Virus record (IMG/VR): IMGVR_UViG_3300027973_000097
Span: 1 to 40,169 of that record
Origin: a virus
Reading direction: 5' to 3' (one strand)
Length of the DNA: 40,169 bases
The notes beneath the pieces are model-generated. The model saw only the letters and a program-made list of their open reading frames with translations. It did no database searches and was not told where the DNA came from. Shown in pieces: positions 17,660 to 32,188 of this stretch (its first letter is position 1; every line of letters starts with the position of its first letter). The translations under genes and the position numbers were made by a program.

Positions 17660-17955
17660 ACCTATCATAGCAGTATAAGTGCAGGTCAGAGCCTACATGA
17701 CCCCCCTATCAAAGTTATGTAGGTCTCTACATATAGGCATATACGCAGGCATATTTAAAAACCCTGGGTTCGCTCTCTGTCGTTCGCTCCCCTACTAACA
17801 CTGCTTGCACGCTTGCCCTGCCTGCTGCTTGCTTGCTTGCTAGTAAGTGAGCAGGTCTATCTCGCTTGAGCGCGACTACTCTAAGCGCGGGGGCATACAC
17901 AGCGCCCCCCCCCTCCTCGTTTAAACGCTGCCCGCATCGCAGCGCACACAGCGCA

Positions 17956-18001
17956 AGGTAGTTGAAAGTTAAACTACCTCATAAGTTACTCATTGGTAAC
18001 T
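17956..18001. promoter_or_regulatory. Two adjacent inverted repeats
   Basis: AGGTAGTT (17956-17963) pairs with AACTACCT (17972-17979), and AGTTAC (17984-17989) pairs with GTAACT (17996-18001). A third related one, TTACTC/GAGTAA, lies at 18089-18102. The spacing and dyad form suit binding of dimeric regulators or initiators; no protein can be assigned. Confidence 0.4.
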
Positions 18002-18003
18002 CT

Positions 18004-18073
18004 CTAAAGTCAGTTGTTTACTATCACTTCAGAGCATGCGAATAATTGCCATGCGCTAAAGTCAGTTGTTTAC
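18004..18073 (+). repeat. 18-bp direct repeat, two copies
   Basis: CTAAAGTCAGTTGTTTAC occurs at 18004-18021 and again at 18056-18073, exactly 52 bp apart (close to five helical turns). It is flanked by inverted repeats, so iteron-like initiator sites or operators are both plausible. Confidence 0.7.
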
Positions 18074-18211
18074 ACTACTTTCAGCGCCTTACTCGTGAGT
18101 AACTTAGCCATGGTGCATCTATTGGCGCTCAAGCCTTAGCCCTGCCCGCCCCTAATCGGGGCACGAATTGGGGCCACAATTAGCCTTGTGAGCAGCACTT
18201 ATGCAGGGTGC

Positions 18212-18240
18212 TTGATATTCCTACAGCACGAGAGTATTCT
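18212..18240 (+). promoter_or_regulatory. Early promoter
   Basis: TTGATA (18212-18217), 17 bases, then TATTCT (18235-18240) gives a good sigma-70/SigA-type promoter. Transcription would begin near 18247, so the GTTTAAAC at 18252-18259 lies across about +6 to +13, a position where a bound protein would block initiation or escape. The first early gene starts 49 bases downstream of the -10. Confidence 0.6.
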
Positions 18241-18288
18241 CCGCGTAGCGGGTTTAAACAGTAAGCCCCTCAACCGTAAGGACTGGCA

Positions 18289-18870
18289 ATGAATCGTGAA
18301 CAATGGCTCAACGAGTTAGCGAATCAGGCCCTGCCTGTAATCGCTCGAACTCTCGATAGTTACGCTCAATTCCGCGAAGAAGAATCGGCTGTACGCCTCT
18401 CTTGCGGTTTCCCCGCTCAACAAGGCAAGCGCAACAAGGTTGCAGCCTGCATAGTGCCTCCTACCGCCTCCGATGATTTTAGCGGGGAGATATTCGTATC
18501 TCCTACGATTTCACAAGGCGCGGAGGTTGCCCTCGCTGTGCTGCCCCTATTGTGCGCAACAGTGACAGGCGACTATCGCAAGGGCGCTGCTTACCGTGAG
18601 GCACTCAAGCGCAACCGTTTAAACGCTGCAAGCCTGCCTGCATGGGCTGCTGCAATCGTGTCAACCTTGCCCGCTTACCCTCACGCTGCAATCACGCTGC
18701 AGCCTCAAGATAAGCAGACTACCCGCCTCCTCAAGGTTGCCTGCTTAGGTGACCTAATGAATGGCGAACAGCATGCAGCCTACATTGTGCGAATCTCTCG
18801 CACTACCCTTGCCAATTATGGCGCCCCAATCTGCCCCCTATGTGGTGCAGCCCTAGCGGAAGGAATCTGA
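18289..18870 (+). CDS. SprT-like metallopeptidase-family protein lacking the HExxH motif
   Basis: The 193-residue product follows the layout of phage SprT-like proteins: VRLSCGFPAQ at 35-44, GEIFVSPTISQGAEVALAVL at 66-85, AYPHAAI at 129-135, TTRLLKVAC, and a terminal APICPLCGAAL zinc half-site. In the active family the segment after EV..VL carries HELVH; here residues 86-90 read PLLCA, so the zinc-binding catalytic residues are missing. The first zinc-ribbon Cys pair is also reduced to one Cys at 152. The frame is intact and holds a GTTTAAAC site, so it is a maintained but probably non-catalytic protein. It is the first early gene, two bases before the amidoligase start. Confidence 0.65.
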   Translation: MNREQWLNELANQALPVIARTLDSYAQFREEESAVRLSCGFPAQQGKRNKVAACIVPPTASDDFSGEIFVSPTISQGAEVALAVLPLLCATVTGDYRKGAAYREALKRNRLNAASLPAWAAAIVSTLPAYPHAAITLQPQDKQTTRLLKVACLGDLMNGEQHAAYIVRISRTTLANYGAPICPLCGAALAEGI

Positions 18871-18872
18871 CC

Positions 18873-19607
18873 ATGAGCGCAACATTCGGAATTGAACTCG
18901 AAATGTCTGACCTCTCAATCTCAACAGCCCAACAGCGTTTAAACGCCATCGGCCTTAACTGGTCATGCAAGCCTGACGGTACCCGCGGGGTTACCGCGGA
19001 GGCTGTTAGCCCAATCCTTGCCTACACTGACCTGAGCGAGGGCAGCAAGGCAGCCCGCGCACTGGCTCAAGCAGGCGCAACAGTCAACAAGCAGACAGGC
19101 TTTCATGTTCATTTAGGTGCAGACCACTACGGCCTAGAAGGTATCGCCCTCCTTGTGCAGAATTGGAATCTGGCTCATGAGACAATCGGGGCGCTTGTTG
19201 CACCCTCCCGTTTAAACAATCACTTCTGCAATTCTGTACCATTAAGCCAGATTGACTCATGGGTAGAGAATGTACGGGCGGGCAATATCCGCAACATGGG
19301 CAACGGTGGACGCTATTACAGCCTCAACCTTAACGCCTATGCAACACATCGCACGGTGGAGGTTCGCCTACATCATGGCACGCTTAACGGTAGCAAGATT
19401 AAGGCATGGGCCGAGTTTTGCGGGGCCATGGCTCAATTCTCCGCTGACGGGGGAATCCTAGATAGTCAATTCTCCAACATTGCAGACCGAGAGGGTGCCC
19501 GTTTAAACGCGGTGCGAAATCTCCTAGATATTCTATCCGAGAATCATCTCGACATTGCCACAGCCTCTTACCTCAAGGGTAGAGCAGCAGACCTAAACGC
19601 CCGCTAA
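18873..19607 (+). CDS. Amidoligase-type carboxylate-amine ligase (glutamine-synthetase fold)
   Basis: The start at 18873 (GGAAGGAATCTGACC ribosome site) gives 244 residues. The family marks of the putative amidoligases are clear: FGIELE at 5-10, GFHVHLG at 76-82, RYYSLNLNAY at 147-156 and RTVEVRLHHGTLNGSKI at 160-176. These enzymes activate a carboxyl with ATP and join it to an amine, and comparative work links them with class II glutamine amidotransferases in phages and other operons. Such an enzyme lies 390 bases downstream here. The substrate is unknown: cell-wall peptide or protein modification is possible. It contains three GTTTAAAC sites, each encoding Arg-Leu-Asn. Confidence 0.85.
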   Translation: MSATFGIELEMSDLSISTAQQRLNAIGLNWSCKPDGTRGVTAEAVSPILAYTDLSEGSKAARALAQAGATVNKQTGFHVHLGADHYGLEGIALLVQNWNLAHETIGALVAPSRLNNHFCNSVPLSQIDSWVENVRAGNIRNMGNGGRYYSLNLNAYATHRTVEVRLHHGTLNGSKIKAWAEFCGAMAQFSADGGILDSQFSNIADREGARLNAVRNLLDILSENHLDIATASYLKGRAADLNAR

Positions 19608-19614
19608 GCGGGCA

Positions 19615-19679
19615 GCCTGCCCCTAGTGGGTGAGCGAGGGTGCAATCCCCTCGGCAGGCACTCATGGCGCAAGCCATGA
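19615..19679 (+). ncRNA. Structured RNA candidate resembling a tRNA acceptor/T-arm minihelix plus a GNRA hairpin
   Basis: GCCTGCC (19615-19621) pairs with GGCAGGC (19653-19659), a 7-bp acceptor-like stem. Just inside its 3' strand lies GAGGG-TGCAATC-CCCTC (19636-19652), a 5-bp stem with a 7-base loop that differs from a tRNA T-loop at one key position (G for T55). A 14-base linker replaces the D and anticodon arms. TCATGGC-GCAA-GCCATGA (19662-19679) follows as a 7-bp stem with a GNRA tetraloop. The region lies between the amidoligase stop and the next ribosome site. It could be a tRNA mimic, a processed RNA or an mRNA regulatory fold. Confidence 0.45.
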
Positions 19680-19727
19680 ACACGACAAGCACAACGCGAA
19701 CTCGTGTTTAAACAGTAAGGACTGGAA

Positions 19728-19817
19728 ATGAATCTTTCAATCATAGACGGGCGCTCATTCTTAATCGTTGCAATCATTGCTGCCGTGTGGATTTGGTACT
19801 GGTGCGGTGAAAGATAA
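19728..19817 (+). CDS. Single-span membrane micro-protein (29 aa)
   Basis: The frame reads MNLSIIDGRSFLIVAIIAAV followed by a Trp-rich end WIWYWCGER. One transmembrane helix covers most of it. Its start has the same AAGGACTGG ribosome site seen before 18289 and 19995, with a GTTTAAAC site (19706-19713) just upstream. No family is known to me. The strong ribosome site is the main support for a real gene. Confidence 0.55.
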   Translation: MNLSIIDGRSFLIVAIIAAVWIWYWCGER

Positions 19818-19983
19818 CGAATTGTTATACATCGTTGAAGGTGTAGACCCTAGCGGGCGCAAGTTCGCTGGGCTATACAACATCGAAGAAGCCCGCGACC
19901 TAGCGAGGGCAAGCCGTTTAAACATAGTGCGTGATAGATACACGCATGCTGTGATACAATCAACCAATCAACCGAAAAGATAG
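19807..19983 (+). CDS. Small protein (58 aa), GTG start
   Basis: I choose the GTG at 19807, overlapping the membrane micro-protein by 11 bases, rather than an earlier ATG that would lie wholly inside that gene. The product (VKDNELLYIVEGVDPSGRKF, later YNIEEARDLARASRLNIVRD) has the form of a short beta-beta-alpha unit and contains an in-frame GTTTAAAC. It ends 11 bases before the amidotransferase. Function is unknown. Confidence 0.55.
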   Translation: MKDNELLYIVEGVDPSGRKFAGLYNIEEARDLARASRLNIVRDRYTHAVIQSTNQPKR

Positions 19984-19994
19984 GACTGGAAAAT

Positions 19995-20816
19995 ATGTGC
20001 GGAATTGCTGGATTTTGTTTAACGCCTGCCGAATGTGCGACCTCATTGGAGGTTAGCAACATGGCTGCTCAAATGCTTTATGACATCGAACATCGTGGAC
20101 AAGATGCCACTGGTGCATCATGGGTCAACACTGGAACCAAGAAGCGGGCAATCTTAAAGCACGCTATGCCCGCCTCTCAATTTGTGCCAATCGTGGGCGA
20201 TTACCTATGCGAAAACGCACAGACTGCAATCTTACACACAAGATATGCAACCAAAGGCAACCCAAATAACCGCGACAACAATCACCCAATCGCACGAGGT
20301 AACATCGTGCTCACACATAACGGACACATCAGCAATGACGATGAAGTGTTTAAACGATTAGGCGTACATCGCAACGCTCAAGTTGACAGCGAAGCAGCAG
20401 CAGCACTGCTTGCTTTCACTAGCAAGTACCACCCTGCCGAAGTGCTGGGAACTCTTAAAGGTGGCGCAGCCCTTGCGTGGATTTCCTCCACCGATGCAGC
20501 AACGCTACACCTAGCACGCCTTGCCTCCTCTCCCCTATGGGTAGGACAGACAGCACGGGGCAGCCTTGTCTATGGCTCAACCTATGAAGTTATATTTAAC
20601 GCAGCAATCATGCTCAATGACGACCTATCATGGGAGTACGAAGTTGATAACGGAACTTACCTAAAGGTAAGAGACGGGCGCATCATCGAACACGAGACGT
20701 TTAAACCCGCACTCTCTGCAATCTACAGCATGGCAACATGGCAAGATAAAAAGATAGATGCTGGAATCAAACAGGCAACACATCAAACACGCATGCAGGA
20801 ACTACTGCCCTTCTAA
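19995..20816 (+). CDS. Class II glutamine amidotransferase (GlmS/PurF-type N-terminal domain, stand-alone)
   Basis: The 273-residue protein begins MCGIAGF, giving the N-terminal nucleophile Cys2. It carries the whole family set: HRGQDATG at 33-40, HTRYATKG at 81-88, NNHPIARGNIVLTHNG at 95-110 and DSEA at 131-134. This domain releases ammonia from glutamine and normally passes it to a synthase domain, which is absent here. The amidoligase upstream on the same transcript is the natural partner, so the pair may form an amide on an unknown acid. It has an AGGACTGG ribosome site and ends before a good terminator. Two GTTTAAAC sites fall in Phe-Lys codons. Confidence 0.9.
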   Translation: MCGIAGFCLTPAECATSLEVSNMAAQMLYDIEHRGQDATGASWVNTGTKKRAILKHAMPASQFVPIVGDYLCENAQTAILHTRYATKGNPNNRDNNHPIARGNIVLTHNGHISNDDEVFKRLGVHRNAQVDSEAAAALLAFTSKYHPAEVLGTLKGGAALAWISSTDAATLHLARLASSPLWVGQTARGSLVYGSTYEVIFNAAIMLNDDLSWEYEVDNGTYLKVRDGRIIEHETFKPALSAIYSMATWQDKKIDAGIKQATHQTRMQELLPF

Positions 20817-20831
20817 TCACGACAACATCAA

Positions 20832-20858
20832 CCCCTCGCAGAAATGCGGGGGGTTTTT
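20832..20858 (+). terminator. Rho-independent terminator of the first early transcript
   Basis: CCCCTCGCA (20832-20840), a GAAA loop and TGCGGGGGG (20845-20853) form a 9-bp stem with one G-U pair, followed by TTTTT. It lies 15 bases after the amidotransferase stop. Confidence 0.85.
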
Positions 20859-20888
20859 GCTTGCCGCCAGGGACTCGTCATGGCTGGT

Positions 20889-20979
20889 GTTTAAACAATA
20901 GAGTTTACCTCCAGGCGGCCCGCGAAGATTTGACGTTTAAACACATGCGTGACATGGTGTTAGCGGCTGGTGTTTAAAC
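20889..20979. repeat. Cluster of three GTTTAAAC palindromes
   Basis: GTTTAAAC lies at 20889-20896, 20935-20942 and 20972-20979, spaced 46 and 37 bp, between the terminator and the second early promoter. Two have the same preceding context GGCTGGT. This is the densest cluster in the genome and the only one wholly in promoter-upstream DNA, which supports a protein-binding role. Confidence 0.85.
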
Positions 20980-21000
20980 AAAAAAATAAATTAAAATTTT

Positions 21001-21029
21001 TTGAAATGTACTTGACCTGTATGTATAAG
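21001..21029 (+). promoter_or_regulatory. Second early promoter
   Basis: TTGAAA (21001-21006), a 17-base spacer and TATAAG (21024-21029) form a strong sigma-70/SigA-type promoter. An A/T-rich tract (20979-21000), like an UP element, precedes it, with the three GTTTAAAC sites directly before that. It would drive the genes from 21082 to 22883. Confidence 0.65.
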
Positions 21030-21081
21030 GCATGAGAAGATTCATCTATAGCAACCACGCTATACCTAACAAAGGACTGAC

Positions 21082-21234
21082 ATGATTACTAACACAGATT
21101 TAATTGCGATAATCATCGCGCTAGTATCGGCTGGCTTAGTGCTTGCCATTGCACTACGAAAGAACTACTTACTGGAACAAGAGAACGCAAACCTCAAGCG
21201 CAGGATTAAGATACTCAAAAAGGAAAAAGAATAA
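21082..21234 (+). CDS. Membrane-anchored coiled-coil micro-protein (50 aa)
   Basis: MITNTDLIAIIIALVSAGLV gives one transmembrane helix, then a charged heptad-like tail (NYLLEQENANLKRRIKILKK) likely to form a coiled coil inside the cell. It is preceded by AAAGGACTGAC as ribosome site and ends in a TAATG overlap with the next gene. Such small proteins are common in phage early regions; function is unknown. Confidence 0.65.
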   Translation: MITNTDLIAIIIALVSAGLVLAIALRKNYLLEQENANLKRRIKILKKEKE

Positions 21235-21506: not shown

Positions 21507-21880
21507 TGAAACACCCAGAAGTTAAAGGCGTAGTGTTATTTACAGATGGCACTCACGAGGAACGCACGTTTAAACAACTCAAGGACTACCAAGATGCAGT
21601 CGGTGGACTCATTGAAATCGTAAAGTTATACGATGCAGCGGGCAAAGACTTAGCCACGGCCTATGTAAATGAGGAAGGGATTATGCTCAACCTACCGTTA
21701 AACGGATTCGGTGGTGCACTCTCTTTCATGCTGGGAAATAACCCAATGCTAATGGGTAACATGATAGTAGTAGGCACCGATGATGGCGAGGGATATGACA
21801 CAGACATAGACACAATGCTATTGTCTTTCATTAAGCATGTGTTACCAACGAGTAAGGAATTAGAAGATGAATCTGTTTAA
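21506..21880 (+). CDS. DUF3846-like protein (124 aa)
   Basis: After a short beta-strand start (VKGVVLFTDGTHEERTFKQL) the protein shows the pattern GGLIEIVKLY, AYVNEEGIMLNLPLNGFGGA and GNMIVVGTDD. This matches the DUF3846 family of phage and mobile-element proteins (NEEG, LP.N, GN..V.G). The biochemical function of that family is not known. It overlaps the transglycosylase start by 14 bases. One GTTTAAAC falls in Phe-Lys codons. Confidence 0.7.
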   Translation: MKHPEVKGVVLFTDGTHEERTFKQLKDYQDAVGGLIEIVKLYDAAGKDLATAYVNEEGIMLNLPLNGFGGALSFMLGNNPMLMGNMIVVGTDDGEGYDTDIDTMLLSFIKHVLPTSKELEDESV

Positions 21881-22310
21881 ACATATACACCCACATGCAC
21901 GCATTTGGTTTATCACTGTACTAATTCTAATCGGAGTGTTGTTCGTGAACCCACGAGTGGAATATGTAATTCACCCACCTAAATCTCAGGTGCTTGCTTA
22001 CTACACAAACGATTACCAACACTTCGCCATTGGCGAACTCATCAAGCAGAACAAACTTGAGCAGTACCCATGCCTCTATGAACTATGGCAACGAGAGAGC
22101 AACTGGCGACCCGCTGCCGTTAACAAGAGAAGCAAAGCCTCAGGTATTGCACAACTCATGCCCAACACATGGCAAATACTTAAGGTTAAGCCAACGAAAG
22201 ATGGGTTTAAACAGGTAACAATCGGATTGAAATATATTGACCGACATTACGGGAAAGACGGCGGAATATGCAGAGCATACGCACATCACCTAGCAATGGG
22301 GTGGTACTAA
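21867..22310 (+). CDS. Membrane-anchored lytic transglycosylase-like protein
   Basis: Residues 13-27 form an N-terminal membrane anchor (WFITVLILIGVLFV). The lysozyme-like domain follows with CLYELWQRESNWRPAAVNKR at 69-88, where Glu77 is the expected catalytic acid, then SGIAQLMPNTW at 92-102, GLKYIDRHYG and the terminal MGWY. This is the small Slt/Rpf-type domain common in actinophages. Being in an early operon, separate from the late endolysin, it may open peptidoglycan during infection or remodel it rather than lyse the cell. GTTTAAAC sites fall within codons 3-5 and 113-116. Confidence 0.8.
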   Translation: MNLFKHIHPHARIWFITVLILIGVLFVNPRVEYVIHPPKSQVLAYYTNDYQHFAIGELIKQNKLEQYPCLYELWQRESNWRPAAVNKRSKASGIAQLMPNTWQILKVKPTKDGFKQVTIGLKYIDRHYGKDGGICRAYAHHLAMGWY

Positions 22311-22498
22311 TGGCACCTACAAACTACAACACATTGAAAGATGAGATTGTCTTTCACCTTATTCAAAGCGGATACACATTCTCATCAGAGAACGGCGACC
22401 CCGTGGTAATCAGACCAATGAAGGTAGCAGTGCTGCTAGATTCAGTGCTTGACTACATGATAGGGGCTGGCTATGCAACCACAACGAAACTCTCCTAG
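22310..22498 (+). CDS. Hypothetical protein (62 aa)
   Basis: The start at 22310 is set by a TAATG overlap with the transglycosylase stop. The product begins MAPTNYNTLKDEIVFHLIQS and includes VVIRPMKVAVLLDSVLDYMI, a mixed alpha/beta pattern without membrane segment. It overlaps the WhiB gene by 26 bases. I know no family for it. Confidence 0.6.
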   Translation: MAPTNYNTLKDEIVFHLIQSGYTFSSENGDPVVIRPMKVAVLLDSVLDYMIGAGYATTTKLS

Positions 22499-22883
22499 CG
22501 TAAAGTTTATCCACATGCTCAGCAATATACCGAGAGCATACAAGCCACAATTCCACAGAGTTATGAAGTCAAAGGTAATAAATGGCTTGACCTACTACCG
22601 TTTAAACTACAATGCTAAAGCCTTCGAAGGTGCAGCATGTGCTGGTGCCGATACGGAAATGTTCTACCCCGATAGCGTGCAATTCAGCAGAGAAGAAGCC
22701 CTGTTCTATGCCACATTATGTAGTGATTGCCCCGTCAAAGCAGCATGCTTGGAGTGGGCACTAGCCCACGAAAGGCAGGGTGTATGGGCAGGAACCTCAC
22801 CCGAAACACGAACTGCCCTACGCAAACGCCTTAAGATAGGACTCAAAGACCCAAACGATTACACCGACTCAGAGTTGCGGTAG
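22473..22883 (+). CDS. whiB-like: WhiB-like Fe-S transcription regulator
   Basis: This 136-residue protein has the four cluster-binding cysteines of the family at 56, 83, 86 and 92 (C-x26-C-x2-C-x5-C, segment CSDCPVKAAC). The G(V/I)W-G turn follows as GVWAGTSPE at 103-111, then a basic C-terminus RTALRKRLKIG. Wbl proteins are found essentially only in Actinobacteria and their phages, which is the main host clue here. They bind the primary sigma factor and alter transcription or redox response. The first 45 residues are an unusual extension. It is the last gene before a terminator and contains one GTTTAAAC. Confidence 0.92.
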   Translation: MQPQRNSPSVKFIHMLSNIPRAYKPQFHRVMKSKVINGLTYYRLNYNAKAFEGAACAGADTEMFYPDSVQFSREEALFYATLCSDCPVKAACLEWALAHERQGVWAGTSPETRTALRKRLKIGLKDPNDYTDSELR

Positions 22884-22903
22884 TTGTGATAGAGTAAGTG
22901 TTA

Positions 22904-22944
22904 GGCACTCAGCCCCACGAAGGGGAAGCGCGGGATTGAGTGCC
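22904..22944 (+). other. Nested hairpin after the whiB-like gene
   Basis: GGCACTCA (22904-22911) pairs perfectly with TGAGTGCC (22937-22944), and CCCC/GGGG (22913-22925) form an inner hairpin. It lies 20 bases past the WhiB stop and just before the bidirectional terminator. It may be a stabilising 3' structure or part of a small RNA. Confidence 0.45.
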
Positions 22945-22950
22945 CATAAA

Positions 22951-22993: not shown

Positions 22994-23005
22994 GCTATGT
23001 TTAAA

Positions 23006-23548
23006 CTATAATTCCTTAGACTTAGCAAGCATGAATACTTCATCTGCTAAATCAGATAGTGAACCAGCGTTAAGGATTACATCATCAAAGCGCCAGTTAT
23101 CCATCGCAGTTTCAGATGCATGTAAGTTAACTGGCTTATGATTCTCACGCTGCACACGCCACACTTGCCCGCCCTTATCAACGATAGCCTGTGCCTCATT
23201 AGGAAAACGAACATCGTTGAAAACGATTCGCTCATCATTGGTTATCTGTTTAAACGCAATGTCTACCCAAAAAGATTCACCAAACATTTTTCGCCCAACT
23301 TCGGTACCAAATACTTGTAGCAATCTGCGTGCATCGGTATCTTTCTTAGCCCACTCCCACCCATATACATCTACTGCTTCATCAAGGTACATCAAGCGAG
23401 ATGAGTATGCCACTATCGGATTCAATGCTAACAAAGCCTTACGCATAGGCTCAGCGAATGAACGGCGTTCGTATTCATAGTTAAGTAGCAATAGTTCAGC
23501 CACTGTATCTTTACCAGACTGTGCGTACCCACTCAAACCAATTAACAT
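23006..23548 (-). CDS. Deoxynucleoside monophosphate kinase
   Basis: The 180-residue protein opens MLIGLSGYAQSGKDT with the P-loop G-x4-GKD at 7-15. It continues with FAEPMRKALLALNP, GTEVGRKMFGESFWVDIAFK and the acceptor-side IVFNDVRFPNEAQAI, all typical of phage dNMP kinases related to T4 gene 1. It phosphorylates dNMPs to feed replication. It is the last gene of the leftward replication operon; its stop codon abuts the GTTTAAAC at 22999. Confidence 0.85.
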   Translation of the reverse strand: MLIGLSGYAQSGKDTVAELLLLNYEYERRSFAEPMRKALLALNPIVAYSSRLMYLDEAVDVYGWEWAKKDTDARRLLQVFGTEVGRKMFGESFWVDIAFKQITNDERIVFNDVRFPNEAQAIVDKGGQVWRVQRENHKPVNLHASETAMDNWRFDDVILNAGSLSDLADEVFMLAKSKEL

Positions 23549-23551
23549 TGA

Positions 23552-23674
23552 CTATAACCCCCACCAAATAGCGATTACAACTGGACCAAAGAACAACTCA
23601 ACACATCTCAAGCCATCATAGTAAGCAGCACCAACCATAAACATGCGCCAGTTAAACTCAAATACAAACTTCAT
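23552..23674 (-). CDS. Membrane micro-protein (40 aa)
   Basis: The start at 23674 overlaps the sigma-like gene by ATGA. The product, MKFVFEFNWRMFMVGAAYYD then a hydrophobic end VELFFGPVVIAIWWGL, is strongly hydrophobic and probably inserts in the membrane. It ends four bases before the kinase start. No family known. Confidence 0.55.
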   Translation of the reverse strand: MKFVFEFNWRMFMVGAAYYDGLRCVELFFGPVVIAIWWGL

Positions 23675-24345
23675 TCTTGCTCCTTTAATTCTGCCTGCGC
23701 TTGTGCGTTGGACTTGCGGTACCTTCTGTTGTTCCATATCGGTGCATCACCACCGAGTCTATCTTGTAACTTAGTAAGAGCGCGACTAACGCGCTTGCGT
23801 ATGGCCTCCTCAGAGGCGGTGTACTCAATTGCTAATGCATCGAAGTCAGTACCACCATCATCAAACCTGCGCTGGAGTAGCAACCTATCTGCATCGTTTA
23901 AACGCTTCAATGCCTGGGCCACATCAGATAATAAAGCAAGTCTATTGTTTCCTTCACTTGGCTTGGTACTTCTACTAATGAACTCACTATCGGCAGGTGT
24001 TGAGGACTGCACCCAATACTCATAGTGCCACACATCTTTGAGTAACTCTTGTAGTACCTCGTGTGTGTAGTAGAAAGAATCACTTGGACTTGACTTAGAT
24101 TTATACGCTCGTTCTTTTGCTGCAAACTTTTGACCCTCGTTGTTAAAGGTACGGCGCAGTTTAAACACGAGGCTGTCTTGCGCTTCCCATTCTTCTATCT
24201 TGTGCCAGTGTTCCAATGCCCACACATTCAGGTGTTGATACACATCATCAGAGGATACAATGTTGCGATGCACTCGCGCTGTGCGCTGGCTCGCCATCTT
24301 TGCTACCTTAAATATCTGGTCTAATAGTTCTTCTTTGTTACTCAT
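23671..24345 (-). CDS. Sigma-factor-like protein (region-4 helix-turn-helix)
   Basis: The C-terminal part, about residues 140-195 (AQALKRLNDADRLLLQRRFD and later YTASEEAIRKRVSRALTKLQ), has the sigma-70 region-4 pattern: an early acidic-helix turn, then recognition helix ending in a basic stretch. Residues 1-95 include DDVYQHLNVWALEHWHKI, which resembles region 2 of ECF factors. It could redirect host RNA polymerase to phage promoters or act as a sigma-fold replication-linked regulator. It overlaps both neighbours (ATGA at 23671; eight bases at 24338). GTTTAAAC sites encode Leu-Asn and Phe-Lys. Confidence 0.72.
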   Translation of the reverse strand: MSNKEELLDQIFKVAKMASQRTARVHRNIVSSDDVYQHLNVWALEHWHKIEEWEAQDSLVFKLRRTFNNEGQKFAAKERAYKSKSSPSDSFYYTHEVLQELLKDVWHYEYWVQSSTPADSEFISRSTKPSEGNNRLALLSDVAQALKRLNDADRLLLQRRFDDGGTDFDALAIEYTASEEAIRKRVSRALTKLQDRLGGDAPIWNNRRYRKSNAQAQAELKEQE

Positions 24346-24724
24346 TGATTAACTTCCTCGTTGCTGTTAGTAAATCTTCTACTGTAATGAGGAAGCCCTT
24401 GCTTAAGTTTGGTGGTATCTCACATGTTATTTCCCTGCCAAAGTTCTCAACTGCATACTTAAGTGTTGGTGTTGTCACCATCACGACACTCTTTTCTAAT
24501 ACGAACGCCCAGTAGTCTGCCTCTGTTACGTTTAAACCCGAAGGTTGCCATGACATAGACTTCCTAAAGAAACACTCAACCTCAATGTAAAGGTTGTTAG
24601 TTTTCCACCACTTCCTATCACGCTTGACTTCAATAGTCCTACCACCAGTGAGTAAGTCCTCAACAAGTTGCTCACCCTTGCGACCATATCCAAAGTCTAA
24701 ATCAAACGATGAGCGATTAACCAT
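24338..24724 (-). CDS. PD-(D/E)xK-like nuclease-fold protein (128 aa)
   Basis: The motif series is GRKGEQLVEDLL (about 14-25), then TIEVKRDRKWW (about 30-40, with Glu-x-Lys) and LYIEVECFF. This is the classic beta strand E-x-K arrangement of small restriction-like nucleases and resolvases. The start is placed at ATG 24724, sharing one base with the previous stop (TGATG). Substrate is unknown; DNA repair or host-DNA degradation are possible. Confidence 0.6.
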   Translation of the reverse strand: MVNRSSFDLDFGYGRKGEQLVEDLLTGGRTIEVKRDRKWWKTNNLYIEVECFFRKSMSWQPSGLNVTEADYWAFVLEKSVVMVTTPTLKYAVENFGREITCEIPPNLSKGFLITVEDLLTATRKLINE

Positions 24725-24810
24725 CACCTAGCACCCATCATTAAGCCCAACAGAAATGATGCTGTTAAACTAAGAAATATAACTACACTTAATACATCTT
24801 CTTTATTCAT
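24724..24810 (-). CDS. Membrane micro-protein (28 aa)
   Basis: The frame reads MNKEDVLSVVIFLSLTASFL followed by LGLMMGAR, one transmembrane helix. Both ends share a base with the neighbours (TAATG at 24810 and TGATG at 24724). Coupling on both sides makes it a probable gene despite its size. Confidence 0.55.
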   Translation of the reverse strand: MNKEDVLSVVIFLSLTASFLLGLMMGAR

Positions 24811-25528: not shown

Positions 25529-25596
25529 TGTGTTCTCCTTAGTTGTAGTCTAAATATAGTGGTCGTGGTATTATGTTAAGTTGTACTCTTCTCTGT

Positions 25597-25976: not shown

Positions 25977-25978
25977 GT

Positions 25979-26596
25979 TTAAACACCTGCTCGCTTGCGT
26001 AAACCATCGGCACCTTCGTTGAGGTACACATCATTTACATCAGCACCCTCAGGCATGAACACGGGGAACACGTTATCTAGTTCACGACTAAGGTTCTTAG
26101 CCATCTCTCTACCTGCATTATCACCGTCGCATAGCAGCACAATCTTGCCCCAGTCTGCCAGTACACGAGAGTAAAAAGGTTTCCAGTTGTTAGCCCCTGG
26201 CAACCCGACTGCATTGAAGCCAGCCTGCGTTGCTACTACAGTGTCAAGTTCTCCCTCACATATTACGAGGACTTCTGACTCCTCGTATAACGCTTGTACG
26301 TTATAGATATGCGTGGTAGCCCCTGGCCTTGACAGATACTTTGGTCCATTGTCCATGACGATACTTCTAAAGCGAAGGTCAATGGGTCCAGCGGGTGTAA
26401 GATAAGGGATTGATAACTTCCCGATGTACGGTTCGTGTCCAATCTCAGGCTCCTTTACGAAGCCGAGGCGAAACGTACGAGCCGTCTCCGCTGTTATACC
26501 GCGACCCATTAGATACGGAAGTATCTCGTCTAGGTTTTGTTCGTAGTTCGTTGTTGCTTTCGCCAGTAATTCTCTCTGCGATTTGCTTAGCCTCAT
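25979..26596 (-). CDS. DNA primase catalytic (TOPRIM) subunit
   Basis: The 205-residue protein has the primase core linkers (GRGITAETARTFRLGFV, LSIPYLTPAGPIDLRFR, KYLSRPGATTHIYNV) and the TOPRIM motifs CEGELDTVVA (Glu114) and LLCDGDNAG (Asp157, Asp159). The zinc-binding part lies in the separate upstream gene, with which it overlaps by 152 bases in the +1 frame. A later start at Met30 (26509) would shorten that overlap. It makes RNA primers for phage replication. The stop codon is part of a GTTTAAAC site. Confidence 0.85.
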   Translation of the reverse strand: MRLSKSQRELLAKATTNYEQNLDEILPYLMGRGITAETARTFRLGFVKEPEIGHEPYIGKLSIPYLTPAGPIDLRFRSIVMDNGPKYLSRPGATTHIYNVQALYEESEVLVICEGELDTVVATQAGFNAVGLPGANNWKPFYSRVLADWGKIVLLCDGDNAGREMAKNLSRELDNVFPVFMPEGADVNDVYLNEGADGLRKRAGV

Positions 26597-26822
26597 TGAA
26601 TGGCACTCCCTCTTTCTTCATAATGATGGAGTACACATCGCCTGCCATGTCGCAGCCGAAGCATCTGAATCCACCGTTGTCTATGTTTAAACGGGCTGAC
26701 TTAACTCTATCACCATGGAAGGCACATCGCACTGTAATCCATCCACGTTTTTGTGCTGGCAATTCAAATCCATAGTGTTCTAATACTTTTCCTATGTCAT
26801 GTTTAGAGTTTGGCGAGAGCAT
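26445..26822 (-). CDS. DNA primase zinc-binding (CHC2) subunit
   Basis: With the ATG at 26822 the zinc ligands are Cys33, His36, Cys54 and Cys57 (VRCAFHGD and FRCFGCDMAGD), the C-H-C-C arrangement of CHC2 domains. Motifs such as SARLNIDNGG and MKKEGVPFNEAKQIAERI agree. The last about 35 residues (after GESNNELRT) are Ser/Arg-rich and are read in the zone that overlaps the TOPRIM gene. Two chains, or a frameshift fusion, could form the working primase. One GTTTAAAC encodes Leu-Asn. Confidence 0.82.
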   Translation of the reverse strand: MLSPNSKHDIGKVLEHYGFELPAQKRGWITVRCAFHGDRVKSARLNIDNGGFRCFGCDMAGDVYSIIMKKEGVPFNEAKQIAERITGESNNELRTKPRRDTSVSNGSRYNSGDGSYVSPRLRKGA

Positions 26823-27168
26823 CACTAAGCCTTTGCACTACATAAGCCTCACTAATCCCCTTGTTTGAAGCCTTAATAACTACCAATGGCGTAGGCGCTA
26901 CCTTTAAATGCTTAGCCTTGCGATAGTTCTCTGCCTCTACATCTGCCTCACGCAACCAACCCGATAGGTCAATCTTTCCATCACGGCGTGGTGCCTTGGC
27001 TTCGATTACATATATGTCATTGTCTGTTGGTAGTGCAACATCACCAATGTCGTTGCGCCCTGCTCGTGGTAGACGTTGAGCGTTTAAACCCTGTGTCATC
27101 AACCAATCTGCAAGTTCAATCTCAAAGGCTGCACCTCTGCGCTTGTTACTTTTCTGTGGTGTTGTCAT
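26803..27168 (-). CDS. Holliday-junction-resolvase-like nuclease (Hjc/PD-(D/E)xK)
   Basis: Starting at ATG 27168 (ribosome site GGAGG), the 121-residue product reads NKRRGAAFEIELADWLMTQG with Glu16, then AGRNDIGDVALP with Asp43, and YVIEAKAP with Glu56-Ala-Lys58. This set is the archaeal Hjc-type resolvase pattern. It would resolve recombination or replication junctions before packaging. It overlaps the glycosyltransferase end by 23 bases and the primase zinc subunit by 20. Confidence 0.78.
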   Translation of the reverse strand: MTTPQKSNKRRGAAFEIELADWLMTQGLNAQRLPRAGRNDIGDVALPTDNDIYVIEAKAPRRDGKIDLSGWLREADVEAENYRKAKHLKVAPTPLVVIKASNKGISEAYVVQRLSDALAKL

Positions 27169-27880: not shown

Positions 27881-27882
27881 GT

Positions 27883-28242
27883 TTAAACTTCTCCCTCTGA
27901 AATGTCTAGTACTTGCATTGCGTTCTCTGCCATCTCTTTCCAAGCCGTAGCCATCTCAAAGAGTTGGTCTGCTAAAGCGGTAGTACAATCATCAGCACGG
28001 CACTCTTGTAAGTGCTTACCTAATTGACCAACATAGTCTGCAAACTGTATTGACTCTAACCATATTGCCGAAGGGTTATAGATTTGTTTCGTTGCATCTT
28101 CGATGCGGTCCATAACCTCAGGCAATTCATGTCTAAGTAGTTCCTTCACTTCCGATGGAATGTTTGACTTCTCCACCATGGCTAGGATTTCCTCTGGTGT
28201 ATTCGGCAGTTCCCGTTTCAAGAAACTGTTTAAACTCGTCAT
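27883..28242 (-). CDS. Helical hypothetical protein (119 aa)
   Basis: I start at ATG 28242 (AGGAACTCACAG upstream), where the product is MTSLNSFLKRELPNTPEEIL; a start at 28179 is also possible. It is almost wholly helical and acidic, with a late segment CTTALADQLFEMATAWKEMA. It overlaps the 108-residue gene by 110 bases. Its stop TAA is inside GTTTAAAC (27881-27888), and the site at 28228 encodes Leu-Asn here and Phe-Lys in the overlapping frame. Confidence 0.6.
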   Translation of the reverse strand: MTSLNSFLKRELPNTPEEILAMVEKSNIPSEVKELLRHELPEVMDRIEDATKQIYNPSAIWLESIQFADYVGQLGKHLQECRADDCTTALADQLFEMATAWKEMAENAMQVLDISEGEV

Positions 28243-28459: not shown

Positions 28460-29235
28460 GCTTGCACCATGTCCAATACACTCATACTTGCGGGGTCATA
28501 AGAAAGCCAGACTGGTGAACCACCACTGGCATCAGCAGGACCGTAACGATTTTTAACTGCGTTAACTCCCATAGTTGCTAACTGCGGATAGACAGTCAGG
28601 ATAAGGCTTGGCGTTTGTGCTACCTTGCCATGTAATGCAAAGCGTGGAGGACAAGGGTTACCTTGTACACCCTCGCTAGTGTGATGACAGACAAGCACTG
28701 CTGCGCCTGTCTCTCTAGCCCACCACTTGAGTTCCTTCATCAGTGTGCGTAATCCGCCCCACTCATCTTGTCCATCAAGGGTTACATCAACTGCATTGTC
28801 TAAGACAATCAAGTGCACATCTTCACCAAGGCGCTCTCGCGCAGCAAGGACTGCATCTTCAATGTCTTTTAATGTTGGTGCTGAATCAAACTCCCACATG
28901 ATGTGGTCAGCAGGCTTGAGCATTTGTGCTGCCCATTCCCTGTCTTGGTCCATCAAAGGCTCAACCTCTTGTTGAGGTTTACCTGTGAGCATAGCCAATA
29001 GGCGTAGGCTCATGGTGTGTGAGTGTGTATCAGCAGATATGTACAGCGTGGGTACCTTGGCATGTACTGCCAGTGCTAAAGCAAATGTAGATTTTCCAGC
29101 CCCTGGAGGGCCAGCAACCATGCTTACCTCACCGTAACGAAATGAAATCTGTTGCGCTCCAAGAGAGTGCCACACTGTAGGCAGCGTAGCACCCCCTTGG
29201 GATGCGGTCTTAATAGCCCGCGATAGTAAGCGCAT
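28456..29235 (-). CDS. DnaB/RecA-like replicative ATPase
   Basis: The 259-residue protein has a Walker A MVAGPPGAGKST at 39-50, YISADTHSHTMSLRLLAML (DnaB motif 1a type), Walker B VHLIVLDNAVDVT at 140-152 and the sensor AAVLVCHHTSEG at 178-189. It lacks the N-terminal DnaB domain, as do many phage helicase or RecA-like recombinase proteins. I prefer a replicative helicase or loader because primase follows in the operon, though a recombinase is not excluded. Confidence 0.8.
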   Translation of the reverse strand: MRLLSRAIKTASQGGATLPTVWHSLGAQQISFRYGEVSMVAGPPGAGKSTFALALAVHAKVPTLYISADTHSHTMSLRLLAMLTGKPQQEVEPLMDQDREWAAQMLKPADHIMWEFDSAPTLKDIEDAVLAARERLGEDVHLIVLDNAVDVTLDGQDEWGGLRTLMKELKWWARETGAAVLVCHHTSEGVQGNPCPPRFALHGKVAQTPSLILTVYPQLATMGVNAVKNRYGPADASGGSPVWLSYDPASMSVLDMVQA

Positions 29236-29237
29236 GA

Positions 29238-29645
29238 TTATCCCTTAGCGGAACAAGCAGTCTCTCGTGGATTTGGGCAAGCAAAGAACGACTTGTATGG
29301 CTTACCCACTTTACTAATGCCTGCAGGAACCATACGCATAGGCAAGCCATGGTCGCAGGTTGGTGAAACACTAGGTGTTGATTGATACGGAGTTGTTGTG
29401 GTGTTAACTGCAGTTGGTGCAATAGCACCGTAATGTGCCTGTTGTGCCACAGGTTGTGGATTTAATCCAGCACTTGATAGTGCACCTAAGGCTGTAACTG
29501 TCTGCTCAAGAGCAACGATGTTAACGATGCGTGTTGTTAATGAATCAATGTACTGGTCTAACTCTGCCTCACTCCATGCACGGACATTAAGAAGTGTTCC
29601 GCCAGGGGTCTTGAGGTTAATCTGAAATGGTGCTTCGTTACTCAT
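29238..29645 (-). CDS. Protein with C-terminal zinc finger (135 aa)
   Basis: Residues 1-55 hold a short fold and a helix (EAELDQYIDSLTTRIVNIVA). A Gln/Thr/Pro-rich linker follows, then a C-terminal Cys finger: CDHGLPMRMVPAG, KPYKSFFACPNPRETAC. That GRF/topoisomerase-like finger binds single-stranded DNA in other proteins. It lies between the nuclease and helicase genes, so a DNA-binding accessory or SSB substitute is plausible, as no SSB gene is seen. Confidence 0.68.
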   Translation of the reverse strand: MSNEAPFQINLKTPGGTLLNVRAWSEAELDQYIDSLTTRIVNIVALEQTVTALGALSSAGLNPQPVAQQAHYGAIAPTAVNTTTTPYQSTPSVSPTCDHGLPMRMVPAGISKVGKPYKSFFACPNPRETACSAKG

Positions 29646-30489
29646 GGACTTCGCTTTCTGTTAGTTCGGGATAGAGATATGAATCTTTGCCGTTGACGGC
29701 ATAACAAGCATGATTGACTGAACAAGTACCACACATGAATCCAGTGTTAGGCATGAAGATGTTGTTCTCCACTGCCAGTTTAAACGACTTAACACGGGAG
29801 CCAAGGCGTGACTCTGTATAGTGTGAGAGGTCGGCGGGGCTACTTAATTCCCCAGTCCTAGCCATCCAGTAGGCACCCTTGACAGGGAGCATACCAAATA
29901 CTTTCTCTACCAGTATTGCATACGTGCCCAACTGTTCGTTGGACTTAGGTTCTTGTGCACTTGTCTTGATGTCAATGACAGTGAGTTCACCGTCAGGTGA
30001 GACCATGAGGCGGTCAAGATAGCCTCGCACTTTTACTCCATGTACTTCTTTTAGGAGTTCAGTTTCGATTGCTGGCCTTCCATCAGGCATAATGAATACC
30101 TGATACCCGCTTTCTTGGCGGAATTGAATCCAGTAATCAACCATCTTTGGACCATTGGCAAGCCACCATGAAGCATCTTCCTTGTTTGGATATGCCTTAG
30201 TTGACCTACCGCCTGCCCTGAATGGCATGCCAGTATCGCTGGCTGCGTACTCTTTGTTCCACTCGTTGGTAAATACCACCGTAGGGTCAAAGACTCCCGC
30301 ATCAGCGGGCCATGTGTCATATATTTCAGTTGCAGTGTGTACAGATTTACCGCCTACTAACCAGTAGGAAGGGTTCTCTGCCACGTTCTGCACTCGGCTA
30401 AGGTAATAGTTCCAACCACAGTTGAGCCAAGTTGTAATGGCGCTGTGACTGACGTAATCCTTGCCAGTTAGATTTTGTAATGTTGTCAT
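29638..30489 (-). CDS. RecB/Cas4-like PD-(D/E)xK exonuclease with probable Fe-S cluster
   Basis: The 283-residue product begins the leftward operon. The nuclease motif is VRGYLDRLMVSPDGELTVID (Asp159, Asp173) followed by IKTS (Lys175) and the Gln motif at 186. Cys24 together with Cys253, Cys256 and Cys262 (CGTCSVNHAC) is the Cas4/AddB arrangement for a 4Fe-4S cluster. It probably resects DNA ends during recombination-linked replication. Ribosome site AAGGAGAA lies close to ATG, next to a leader hairpin that may compete with it. Confidence 0.87.
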   Translation of the reverse strand: MTTLQNLTGKDYVSHSAITTWLNCGWNYYLSRVQNVAENPSYWLVGGKSVHTATEIYDTWPADAGVFDPTVVFTNEWNKEYAASDTGMPFRAGGRSTKAYPNKEDASWWLANGPKMVDYWIQFRQESGYQVFIMPDGRPAIETELLKEVHGVKVRGYLDRLMVSPDGELTVIDIKTSAQEPKSNEQLGTYAILVEKVFGMLPVKGAYWMARTGELSSPADLSHYTESRLGSRVKSFKLAVENNIFMPNTGFMCGTCSVNHACYAVNGKDSYLYPELTESEVHE

Positions 30490-30501
30490 GTTTCTCCTTC
30501 A

Positions 30502-30534
30502 ATAGAGGAGACTACTACACAATCTCTCCTCTAT
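30502..30534 (-). promoter_or_regulatory. Leader hairpin that could mask the ribosome site of the replication operon
   Basis: On the minus-strand mRNA, AUAGAGGAGA (30534-30525) pairs with UCUCCUCUAU (30511-30502), a perfect 10-bp stem with a 13-base loop. The UCUCCU in its 3' arm is also exactly complementary to AGGAGA in the true ribosome site a few bases later. Two exclusive folds are therefore possible, one freeing and one hiding the start. Confidence 0.6.
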
Positions 30535-30552
30535 CGAGGTCTGTGCATAATT

Positions 30553-30582
30553 ATTTTATCGGCGTGTCTCGGCGTGTCGCAA
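30553..30582 (-). promoter_or_regulatory. Leftward replication promoter with tandem operator in its spacer
   Basis: Read on the minus strand, TTGCGA (30582-30577), 18 bases and TAAAAT (30558-30553) form a promoter for the operon starting at 30489. The spacer is almost exactly two head-to-tail copies of GACACGCCGA (30578-30559). A tandem repeat fitted to the spacer suggests a repressor or activator site. Confidence 0.55.
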
Positions 30583-30617
30583 GAAATCTGCAAAAAATTG
30601 CGAGTACACTCCTGTTC

Positions 30618-30845
30618 GTGCAGAGCAAGGGTGTATTGGCGAGGTTCCACCGAGCCAAACGAGTTAAGCAGAAGCCTAGCATAGACCTGCGAGGAATACC
30701 AAGCCATGCCTGTATATGTGGCTCATTGGTATTTAAAGTCAAGTGCATGTTTGAGGACAATAACATTTCGTTATGGTTTGTTGATGCAGAGTGCGACCAA
30801 TGCGGAGCGTTGGTAACCGTGCCTACCCCAGTAGATGTGCTCTAA
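30618..30845 (+). CDS. Zinc-ribbon protein (about 75 aa), start uncertain
   Basis: The conserved part is SIDLRGIPSHACICGSLVFK followed by ISLWFVDAECDQCGALVTVP and PTPVD, a two-CxxC zinc ribbon I know from actinophage hypothetical proteins. No ATG lies at a suitable place; I use GTG 30618, with TTG 30636 as alternative. The stop overlaps the next start (TAATG). The gene diverges from the replication operon. Confidence 0.65.
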   Translation: MQSKGVLARFHRAKRVKQKPSIDLRGIPSHACICGSLVFKVKCMFEDNNISLWFVDAECDQCGALVTVPTPVDVL

Positions 30846-31006
30846 TGGAAAAGACTTTAGAGATACACCTTGCTGAATTGCGTGAGAAGATAGCCAAGGA
30901 CATTGAAGATGGCGGATACGTTTGGCTCAATAGCGAATCAAGTAATATCATTGTCAGAAAGATTATCAGTCAAGCAGCAGAGTATGCCAGAGGAAATGGT
31001 GAGTAA
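30845..31006 (+). CDS. Hypothetical helical protein (53 aa)
   Basis: Start at 30845 by TAATG coupling to the zinc-ribbon gene. MEKTLEIHLAELREKIAKDI is a clear charged helix and IIVRKIISQAAEYARGNGE another. No membrane segment or known motif. The next small gene starts one base after its stop. Confidence 0.6.
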   Translation: MEKTLEIHLAELREKIAKDIEDGGYVWLNSESSNIIVRKIISQAAEYARGNGE

Positions 31007-31007
31007 C

Positions 31008-31097
31008 ATGAAGAAAGAAAACCTAGTCAGTATCTTAATCTTCACACTCATGGTGTTAAGTTTTGCCATGGGCTACATCTCTAAAGCATACGGATAA
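31008..31097 (+). CDS. Membrane micro-protein (29 aa)
   Basis: MKKENLVSILIFTLMVLSFA and MGYISKAYG form one transmembrane helix with a positive N-terminus. It begins directly after the preceding stop and ends six bases before the TTG start of the next gene. No family known. Confidence 0.5.
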   Translation: MKKENLVSILIFTLMVLSFAMGYISKAYG

Positions 31098-31103
31098 CAG
31101 CCT

Positions 31104-31277
31104 TTGATTTACCCATACCAATGCACCAAGTGCAGCATCACTGTTGAACTTGAGCGTTCTATCCATGCCGAAGCAGATGCTCCTATGTGCACACCATGCG
31201 GTGAGCCTATGTCACGCATATTCAGCGTGCCAGGAGTTAAGTTCAATGCCCCTGGTTTCTACTCAACGGGTGGCTAA
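31104..31277 (+). CDS. FmdB-type zinc-ribbon protein (57 aa), TTG start
   Basis: The frame starts at TTG 31104 (a stop codon at 31095-31097 in the same frame rules out earlier ATG) and reads YPYQCTKCSITVELERS, then MCTPCGEPMSRIFSVPGVKF and NAPGFYSTGG. Two CxxC pairs and the terminal PG(V/I)KF..PGFYST are hallmarks of FmdB regulatory zinc ribbons found in many phages. Its stop overlaps the methyltransferase start (TAATG), which supports the frame. Confidence 0.75.
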   Translation: MIYPYQCTKCSITVELERSIHAEADAPMCTPCGEPMSRIFSVPGVKFNAPGFYSTGG

Positions 31278-31843
31278 TGGATTATCCTAACTGGTTTATA
31301 GACACCAATGCCATAGACAACTTCAAGCGCCACCTGCTGCCCCTTAAGGGCAAGCCAGTGGATTTCCTGCAGATAGGTGCCTATACGGGTGATGCATCCA
31401 AGTGGATGCTAGATGAAATCTTGAGCCACCCCGACTCAACCTTGACTGATGTTGATACATGGGAAGGTAGCGATGAAGCACTCCACGAAAACATGGATTT
31501 CGATGATGTATTTAAAACATACATAACAAAGGTTGGCAACTATGGCAACCTTACCTACCGCCAAGAAACAAGCGTTGACTTCTTTGGAAGTAACAAAAAG
31601 TTATATGATTTTATCTACATAGATGGCGACCATACAGCCTTCGGTGTAATGAAAGACTTGATGAGTTCATACTCAGCCCTTAAGTCTGGCGGGATTATTG
31701 CATGTGATGATTACCAATGGTCAGAAGGCAAGGGTAATTACTTTGACCCACGCCCTGCCATTGATGCTTTCTTCAACATAACACGCGACTATTTTACAGT
31801 CATTGAAATTGGCTGGCAAGTATGGTTTAAACATGCAGCATAA
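31277..31843 (+). CDS. Class I SAM-dependent methyltransferase (Methyltransf_24-like)
   Basis: The glycine loop is VDFLQIGAYTGDASKWML, the acidic strand ends LTDVDTWEGSDEAL, and later motifs are YDFIYIDGDHTAFGVMKDLM and LKSGGIIACDDYQW. This arrangement matches the Methyltransf_24 type, which often modifies sugars or small molecules rather than DNA. Together with the glycosyltransferase at 27146 it could build a modified glycan. The C-terminus WFKHAA is encoded across a GTTTAAAC site. Confidence 0.78.
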   Translation: MDYPNWFIDTNAIDNFKRHLLPLKGKPVDFLQIGAYTGDASKWMLDEILSHPDSTLTDVDTWEGSDEALHENMDFDDVFKTYITKVGNYGNLTYRQETSVDFFGSNKKLYDFIYIDGDHTAFGVMKDLMSSYSALKSGGIIACDDYQWSEGKGNYFDPRPAIDAFFNITRDYFTVIEIGWQVWFKHAA

Positions 31844-32162
31844 GTTGCTTCTTAAGAACCCAACTTTGCGCTTTGGCATCTGTATCATTTGTGGCCCTAC
31901 AAAATTAAAGAAGAAACAGTACGGCTGGTCGTGTCGTACTAAGTACAACCAATACCGCTCTAGTCATTACAAGTTAAAGAAACTGCATTGTGAACTATGC
32001 GACTTTGTAGCAGAGCACCGTGCCCAGTTAGATGTGGACCATATAGACGGTGACCACGATAACAATGAACCTGAGAACTTACAGACTTTATGTGCTAACT
32101 GCCACCGTCTTAAGACAGTAAACAATAAAGATTGGGAAAGCAAAAAAGCCCCCCGCAATTAA
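31833..32162 (+). CDS. HNH endonuclease
   Basis: The ATG at 31833 follows a GTTTAAAC and overlaps the methyltransferase end. The 109-residue product has two zinc-finger pairs (CIICGP, HCELCDFVA) and the HNH core LDVDHIDGDHDNNEPENLQ with LCANCHRLKT. This is the free-standing phage type, often a homing nuclease. It ends within the loop of the terminator shared with the lysis cassette. Confidence 0.85.
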   Translation: MQHKLLLKNPTLRFGICIICGPTKLKKKQYGWSCRTKYNQYRSSHYKLKKLHCELCDFVAEHRAQLDVDHIDGDHDNNEPENLQTLCANCHRLKTVNNKDWESKKAPRN

Positions 32163-32174
32163 GCGAGGGGCTTT
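32145..32174. terminator. Bidirectional terminator between HNH gene and lysis cassette
   Basis: AAAGCCCCCCGC (32145-32156), a six-base loop AATTAA containing the HNH stop codon, and GCGAGGGGCTTT (32163-32174) give a 12-bp stem with one mismatch. A-rich and T-rich flanks on the two sides allow termination from both directions. A GTTTAAAC follows at 32179. Confidence 0.85.
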
Positions 32175-32188
32175 GTCTGTTTAAACTA

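Follow-up and report, generated by a model that had tools for sequence, protein, structure and literature searches.

The DNA analysed here, called the window throughout, is a 40,169-base IMG/VR virus record (IMGVR_UViG_3300027973_000097), its source described as a freshwater actinobacterial phage. It carries 35 exact copies of the palindromic octamer GTTTAAAC, and in its early region lies a gene for a SprT-like zinc-ribbon protein (18,289–18,870, + strand) that we propose as the reader of the octamer.

An iterated octamer in the early half of the window

An earlier note on this DNA had reported 35 copies of GTTTAAAC, 30 of them in the early half, against about 0.8 expected, and our recount bears these figures out (0.8–1.1 expected). 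Dinucleotide shuffling gives 0.83 copies (100 shuffles, maximum 3), and the Markov-corrected 8-mer count that the note had proposed as a check shows strong enrichment: no other 8-mer of the window is as over-represented as GTTTAAAC, for which Markov orders 1–4 predict 0.89, 0.82, 1.14 and 2.83 copies. The 30 copies lie within 17,919–32,186, the early/replication half (binomial p = 1e-9). The suggestion that the exact palindrome is selected also holds up, as near-misses are almost absent, with about a dozen one-mismatch neighbours in total across the window. The conserved core spans 8 bp exactly; the base before it (−1) is weakly biased towards a pyrimidine (C/T), in 30 of the 35 sites, and no clear signal was found in the flanks beyond that position. 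Between 17.9 and 25 kb the sites are spaced more evenly than random (coefficient of variation (CV) 0.45, against 0.61 at the lowest 1% of random placements); no helical phasing was found for the window's sites at the cut-off applied. As the note had stated, sites occur in coding, junction and intergenic DNA and in genes of both directions. Non-coding or junction DNA is touched by 9 of the 30 early sites, and within genes only reading frames 1 and 2 are used, because frame 0 would give a TAA stop.

The early array (all sites are exact matches, given without strand) opens at 17,919–17,926, in the 860-bp non-coding gap preceding the early arm and immediately after a run of C (GCCCCCCCCC, 17,895–17,920). 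The site at 18,252–18,259 lies 29 bp upstream of the start of the SprT-like gene and is a proposed autoregulatory operator; another lies within that gene (18,617–18,624). Three sites fall in the amidoligase gene (18,937–18,944, 19,210–19,217 and 19,501–19,508), one is intergenic (19,706–19,713), one is coding (19,916–19,923), two are in the glutamine amidotransferase gene (20,348–20,355 and 20,699–20,706) and three cluster in intergenic DNA (20,889–20,896, 20,935–20,942 and 20,972–20,979). Further sites are found in a DUF3846 gene (21,568–21,575), at a stop/start overlap (21,875–21,882), in a transglycosylase-like gene (22,205–22,212), in the WhiB gene (22,600–22,607), at a gene junction (22,999–23,006), in the deoxynucleoside monophosphate (dNMP) kinase gene (23,248–23,255), twice in the sigma-factor gene (23,896–23,903 and 24,159–24,166) and in the gene at 24,338–24,727 (24,530–24,537). 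The array continues at the primase stop (25,977–25,984; sister phages can have GTCTTAAGAC at the same junction), in the primase N-terminal gene (26,685–26,692), in a RusA-like gene (27,082–27,089), near the start of a glycosyltransferase gene (27,881–27,888), in a coding overlap (28,228–28,235), in an exonuclease gene (29,778–29,785) and in another coding overlap (31,825–31,832), and ends in intergenic DNA at the close of the early region (32,179–32,186). The late-region sites are at 599–606, 5,423–5,430, 12,879–12,886, 38,941–38,948 and 39,870–39,877. The genes for the WhiB-like regulator (22,473–22,883) and the sigma factor (23,671–24,345) stand near each other in the early region.

The SprT-like gene and the octamer in other phages

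The product of 18,289–18,870 combines a degenerate protease domain with a zinc ribbon (KQTTRLLKVAC...CPLC). Its HExxH motif, kept in most relatives, has been lost and is replaced by LPLLC. The protein itself has no Pfam match but aligns over its length; of 28 relatives, 20 match the Pfam SprT-like family (PF10263). Across the family the Q, the R and the first Cys of the ribbon are invariant and a second CP[x]C knuckle is common; one ribbon Cys pair is incomplete in the window branch. Three related contigs retain only the ribbon, and such ribbon-only versions (55–99 amino acids) persist alongside full octamer arrays. AlphaFold models, of protein only, are confident (predicted local distance difference test, pLDDT, 91 and 88). 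Foldseek placed an active member near minimal gluzincins (abylysin and selecase, E = 0.004) and returned nothing firm for the window protein, and a sequence search of the PDB found no relative.

The link between this gene and the octamer was recovered by scans that started from either side, in a database in which most records are fragments and with enrichment cut-offs that we set ourselves. A motif-only scan of IMG/VR, requiring two octamers 20–50 bp apart and blind to genes, returned many unrelated contigs that were also enriched for GTTTAAAC, and the single window protein that recurred in them was the product of 18,289–18,870. Every enriched record of at least 15 kb carries a SprT gene; among 50 low-count controls there was 1 clear SprT carrier, itself mildly enriched. 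In the reverse direction, a protein-only scan yielded 80 SprT loci with 906 copies of GTTTAAAC against 47.8 expected, 79 of the 80 being enriched. Because that scan relied on the ribbon pattern, a ribbon-blind scan was added, in which GTTTAAAC or GTGTAAAC is enriched in 64 of 75 loci with a QxTR ribbon versus 7 of 21 without. Among the exceptions, VGSR ribbons go with GTCTAAAC (22 copies versus 1.0 expected) and GTGTAAAC (15 versus 1.0). Four loci with QGCR ribbons (L403, L412, L416 and L418) have five copies of GTATAAAC versus 0.3 expected, possibly a fourth variant of the word.

A second type of SprT protein, B (ribbon GRNTN, HEVAH kept), shows the converse pattern: 80 B-type loci hold 1,569 copies of TGTCTTAA versus 107 expected and 27 of GTTTAAAC versus 18, whereas the A-type (QxTR) loci hold 13 of TGTCTTAA versus 37 alongside 906 of GTTTAAAC versus 48. 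An SprT type predicts the matching motif but not the other one, a double dissociation. In the protease-domain tree the motif is present in 97 of 107 QxTR rows versus 8 of 26 others. Of all families, SprT alone is linked in as many as 16 of 19 deep carrier lineages, the next family reaching 7; in Percival, Reedo and Marky SprT is annotated, although the greedy choice of open reading frames in this co-occurrence test missed it. No methyltransferase or partition gene was common to the carriers of these 19 lineages. Taken together, hundreds of otherwise unrelated phages with the octamer share one gene, that of the SprT-like zinc-ribbon protein, which is therefore likely to be a sequence-specific reader. 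The earlier view that the octamer is limited to one phage module did not survive these comparisons: numerous unrelated phages contain GTTTAAAC, GTGTAAAC or GTCTAAAC repeatedly, and in several the copies extend over the whole genome.

Cultured phages were counted as whole genomes. Among 24 named phages, all 17 with a QxTR ribbon carry GTTTAAAC or GTGTAAAC, in 4–41 copies; the 7 with another, decayed or ribbon-only SprT form have 0–1 copies. GTGTAAAC is present in about 14–41 copies in Microbacterium, Arthrobacter and Streptomyces phages and in Bacteriophage 4A. GTTTAAAC occurs 17 times in Dinoroseobacter phage R5C, 16 times in Pseudanabaena phage Pan1 and 4–7 times in Arya, Mica, MQ-4, Persinger, Mano and ep3, the ep3 count being weak when taken alone (0.7 expected). 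The carriers infect actinobacteria, proteobacteria and a cyanobacterium. Phages of one host strain, Microbacterium foliorum NRRL B-24224, have or lack the octamer according to their own SprT ribbon. Where host genomes were examined (Pseudarthrobacter and Arthrobacter), prophage blocks are rich in GTGTAAAC (about 18–20 sites in 30–37 kb), which is sparse elsewhere. A word search in the QxTR-less phages Dismas, Armstrong, Didgeridoo, Epa5, PSA20 and MW2 gave no comparable iterated word. The Microbacterium phage Armstrong (L291) has six copies of a ATACTTCTATTGTA-type repeat, and in the Microbacterium phage Didgeridoo (L324), which has no octamer array, a small ribbon-only relative of the SprT C terminus (377–538) stands directly before a ParB-like gene. 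Nothing relevant on GTTTAAAC or GTGTAAAC in phages was found in the literature, and papers on these phage clusters list other repeats, not this octamer.

The window's own lineage was taken as 80 IMG/VR loci sharing its DnaB-like helicase: 55 (the window included) carry GTTTAAAC (type A), 19 carry TGTCTTAAGACA (type B) and 7 are unclear fragments. The sister group of the window phage has both a different SprT ribbon and this different motif, TGTCTTAAGACA, an imperfect 12-bp palindrome whose strict half leads into a Shine–Dalgarno-like GGAGA. In three group B loci (L011, L020 and L061) GGAGA and a start codon very often follow TTAAGACA, and the word thus overlaps the ribosome-binding site. The two words share several gene-relative places, namely the primase stop, the start of the gene at 24,338–24,727, the RusA-like gene and the dNMP kinase; orthologous places hold GTTTAAAC in A phages and GTCTTAAGAC in B phages, and one aligned place reads GGGTGTTTAAACATGG in A phages and GGGTCTTAAGACATGG in B phages. 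At the primase stop of L010 and L014, B-type phages with a recently exchanged gene, GTCTAAAC stands where the A partner has GTTTAAAC, perhaps as a decaying site.

The sigma factor and the genes rightward of it have been swapped between the A and B types, at up to 94–100% identity, whereas the dNMP kinase, WhiB and the remainder of the 17.9–23.6 kb arm show no exchange between motif types; the determinant of motif type therefore probably lies in that arm. The exchange boundary is sharp (23,548–23,671), with free recombination from the sigma factor rightward and none from the dNMP kinase leftward. Within the lineage, the amidoligase and glutamine amidotransferase genes (18,873–20,816) occur only in phages with a GTTTAAAC-type arm. 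Two regulators were rejected as octamer readers: the phage sigma factor, which phages of the two types exchange freely (up to 98.7% identity), and WhiB, which splits by motif type within the lineage but is not common to other carriers.

The proposed reader and its rivals

The placement of the sites adds support for a regulator that has an operator of its own together with an array of sites across the genome. In 15 of 15 close, window-type relatives a copy of GTTTAAAC lies at most 110 bp before the start of SprT, and site number and position are retained among close relatives, where the earlier note had suggested looking. Most of the cultured carriers likewise have a site a short way upstream of the gene: it starts 23–44 bp ahead of SprT in Powerpuff, Honk, Persinger, Mano, MQ-4, Arya, ep3 and Mica. 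Of the 27 GTGTAAAC sites in Powerpuff, one is 36 bp upstream of its QxTR SprT gene, directly after what we read as a putative promoter-like stretch. Over all loci, a site upstream of SprT is present in 36 of 137 versus 9% expected. Intergenic sites are in four- to fivefold excess in Reedo (14 of 28 versus 3.1 expected) and Marky (14 of 34 versus 3.0), where sites are also enriched near starts.

On these sequence comparisons, GTTTAAAC is probably the site that the phage SprT-like protein recognises through its C-terminal zinc ribbon, with the ~35 copies serving as an iterated operator system. The enrichment, the gene–motif coupling, the switch of motif with ribbon type and the conserved site placement are computed directly; physical binding, the sign of regulation and a block to elongation are what we infer. 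The protein would sit on the site just upstream of its own gene, giving autoregulation, and would occupy many sites between and inside early genes, where its occupancy may hold down or tune early transcription at initiation and probably at elongation, in the manner of L5 stoperators. Human SPRTN cleaves itself on DNA (PMC5128726), and in family members that keep HExxH a similar DNA-dependent self-cleavage could be the release switch; in the window phage, whose catalytic site has decayed, the protein would act by binding alone.

Several observations weigh against this reading. Many sites lie deep inside coding DNA. The largest IMG/VR clade does not in general have a site upstream of SprT, and in group B such sites stand at chance level (7 of 35), so autoregulation was rejected as a universal rule. 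In the protease-domain tree, 10 of the 107 QxTR rows lack the motif (fragments, or another specificity), the 8 positive rows among the 26 non-QxTR ones carry a variant motif, and phylogenetically independent contrasts, although they point in the same direction, are underpowered (5 supported pairs, median p 0.5). The asymmetry of GTGTAAAC means that a simple homodimer-on-palindrome model is not required; this word occurs in both orientations (6/8 in Percival, 15/18 in Honk), with a bias in some phages (2/15 in Emotion). Within the lineage, linked inheritance and selection cannot be fully separated for the A and B types, and tests on unrelated phages were therefore made. Scanning of window genes turned up no integrase, so a lysogeny-repressor role in the window phage itself is doubtful.

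A sequence-anchored protease is a rival that we consider unlikely. The SprT domain would be tethered at spaced sites and strip bound proteins (silencers, nucleases, stalled complexes or crosslinks), the octamer labelling phage DNA for cleaning. SPRTN-type proteases do target DNA-bound proteins in a DNA-dependent manner (PMC5128726), most members keep HExxH, and Percival, Marky and R5C have an even, genome-wide spread of sites (CV 0.40–0.63, p 0.002). However, HExxH is lost in the window family and ribbon-only versions keep full arrays, so the motif does not need the protease, and the intergenic and upstream bias points to regulation.

That same even spacing, seen in several genomes, could suit a protein that condenses or organises the phage genome for architecture, segregation or packaging, and ParB-like or DNA-binding genes adjoin some SprT genes. 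We give this rather low odds: the window's sites are restricted mainly to the early region, the ParB-like neighbours adjoin QxTR-less SprTs without an array, and most loci are no more evenly spaced than random. Even spacing was rejected as a universal rule, being significant in about a fifth of loci and opposite in others. A partition or compaction site had been suggested for the octamer; no partition gene is common to the carriers.

It is about as improbable that the octamer has some other reader and that SprT merely travels along. Whole early arms are exchanged together, WhiB and the dNMP kinase also split by motif type in the lineage, and a gene annotated 'DNA binding protein' stands just upstream of SprT in Powerpuff, Reedo and Percival; yet no family but SprT spans the carriers, the annotations of the proteobacterial carriers include no WhiB, motif identity tracks ribbon residues, and ribbon-only remnants keep the motif. 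Recognition by a host nucleoid protein or methyltransferase is strongly disfavoured, for although an 8-bp palindrome without near-misses resembles an enzyme site, phages of the same host differ by ribbon type, sites in host genomes fall in prophage blocks, the carriers' hosts span three bacterial groups and no methyltransferase family is shared. Of the roles first offered for the octamer, a binding site for a DNA-binding protein fits best, the host nucleoid protein and the modification mark being left unsupported.

Phages of clusters AZ and EH are among the carriers. The cluster AZ phage Powerpuff is temperate and forms homoimmune lysogens, and no repressor has been identified in AZ or EH phages (PMC8758107). 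The SprT-like protein is a candidate for the missing repressor in some temperate phages without a known one. As a more tentative extension, a SprT-like metalloprotease with a sequence-reading ribbon might represent a phage repressor of a new class, one that silences the prophage from GTNTAAAC sites all over the genome, is inactivated by DNA-triggered self-cleavage and acts as the cluster AZ/EH immunity repressor, with ribbon variants setting immunity groups. The proposal offers a likely recognition sequence for a widespread phage protein whose only annotations are 'SprT-like protease' or 'transcription elongation protein', in phages of actinobacteria, proteobacteria and a cyanobacterium. It also points to a specific candidate for the AZ/EH repressor that was reported as unidentified (PMC8758107). 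If true, this would be the first sequence-specific member of the Spartan-type family, as far as the literature searched shows.

Comparison with known systems

HIP1 (GCGATCGC) is a genome-wide element of cyanobacterial hosts. The octamer resembles it as an exact, highly iterated octameric palindrome; unlike host-wide HIP1, it is phage-borne, tracks one phage gene and lies in prophage blocks in Arthrobacter and Pseudarthrobacter genomes. The start-associated sequences of cluster K and EF phages are likewise words repeated near start codons, as with sister motif B leading into its GGAGA Shine–Dalgarno, but GTTTAAAC is often far from starts and inside genes. With the DNA-dependent metalloproteases SPRTN, Wss1 and SprT (PF10263) the proposed reader shares the protease-domain family, a C-terminal zinc element and a DNA-linked function; it differs in that the literature searched described no member that recognises a particular sequence at iterated sites across a genome, and in that the window copy has lost HExxH.

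The closest likeness is to the operator–stoperator system of mycobacteriophage L5 and cluster A with its repressor Rep (gp71). In both, one short word recurs in 20–30 copies over the phage genome, a difference of word between sister phages goes with a difference of reader (here the A/B double dissociation), and the array is borne by a prophage. The reader here would be a SprT-like zinc-ribbon protein, whereas that of L5 is a monomer with a helix-turn-helix plus a stoperator domain, and no gp71-like repressor emerged when 20 window proteins, the products of 19 early genes plus the terminase, were scanned against PHROGs. The L5 word is asymmetric and ~13 bp long; GTTTAAAC is an 8-bp palindrome, and GTGTAAAC and GTCTAAAC are asymmetric but 8 bp. 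L5 sites are fixed to the direction of transcription, whereas palindromic GTTTAAAC has no orientation and GTGTAAAC occurs both ways. Many L5 sites occupy short intergenic gaps. Octamer sites are enriched in intergenic DNA in Reedo and in Marky, and 9 of the window's 30 early sites touch non-coding or junction DNA, but many are coding, and sites inside genes set the array apart from that of L5. We therefore class the octamer array, by analogy, as an iterated operator system that would act like the L5 stoperators but is not a member of that system, since site form, orientation and reader all differ (PMC9283540).

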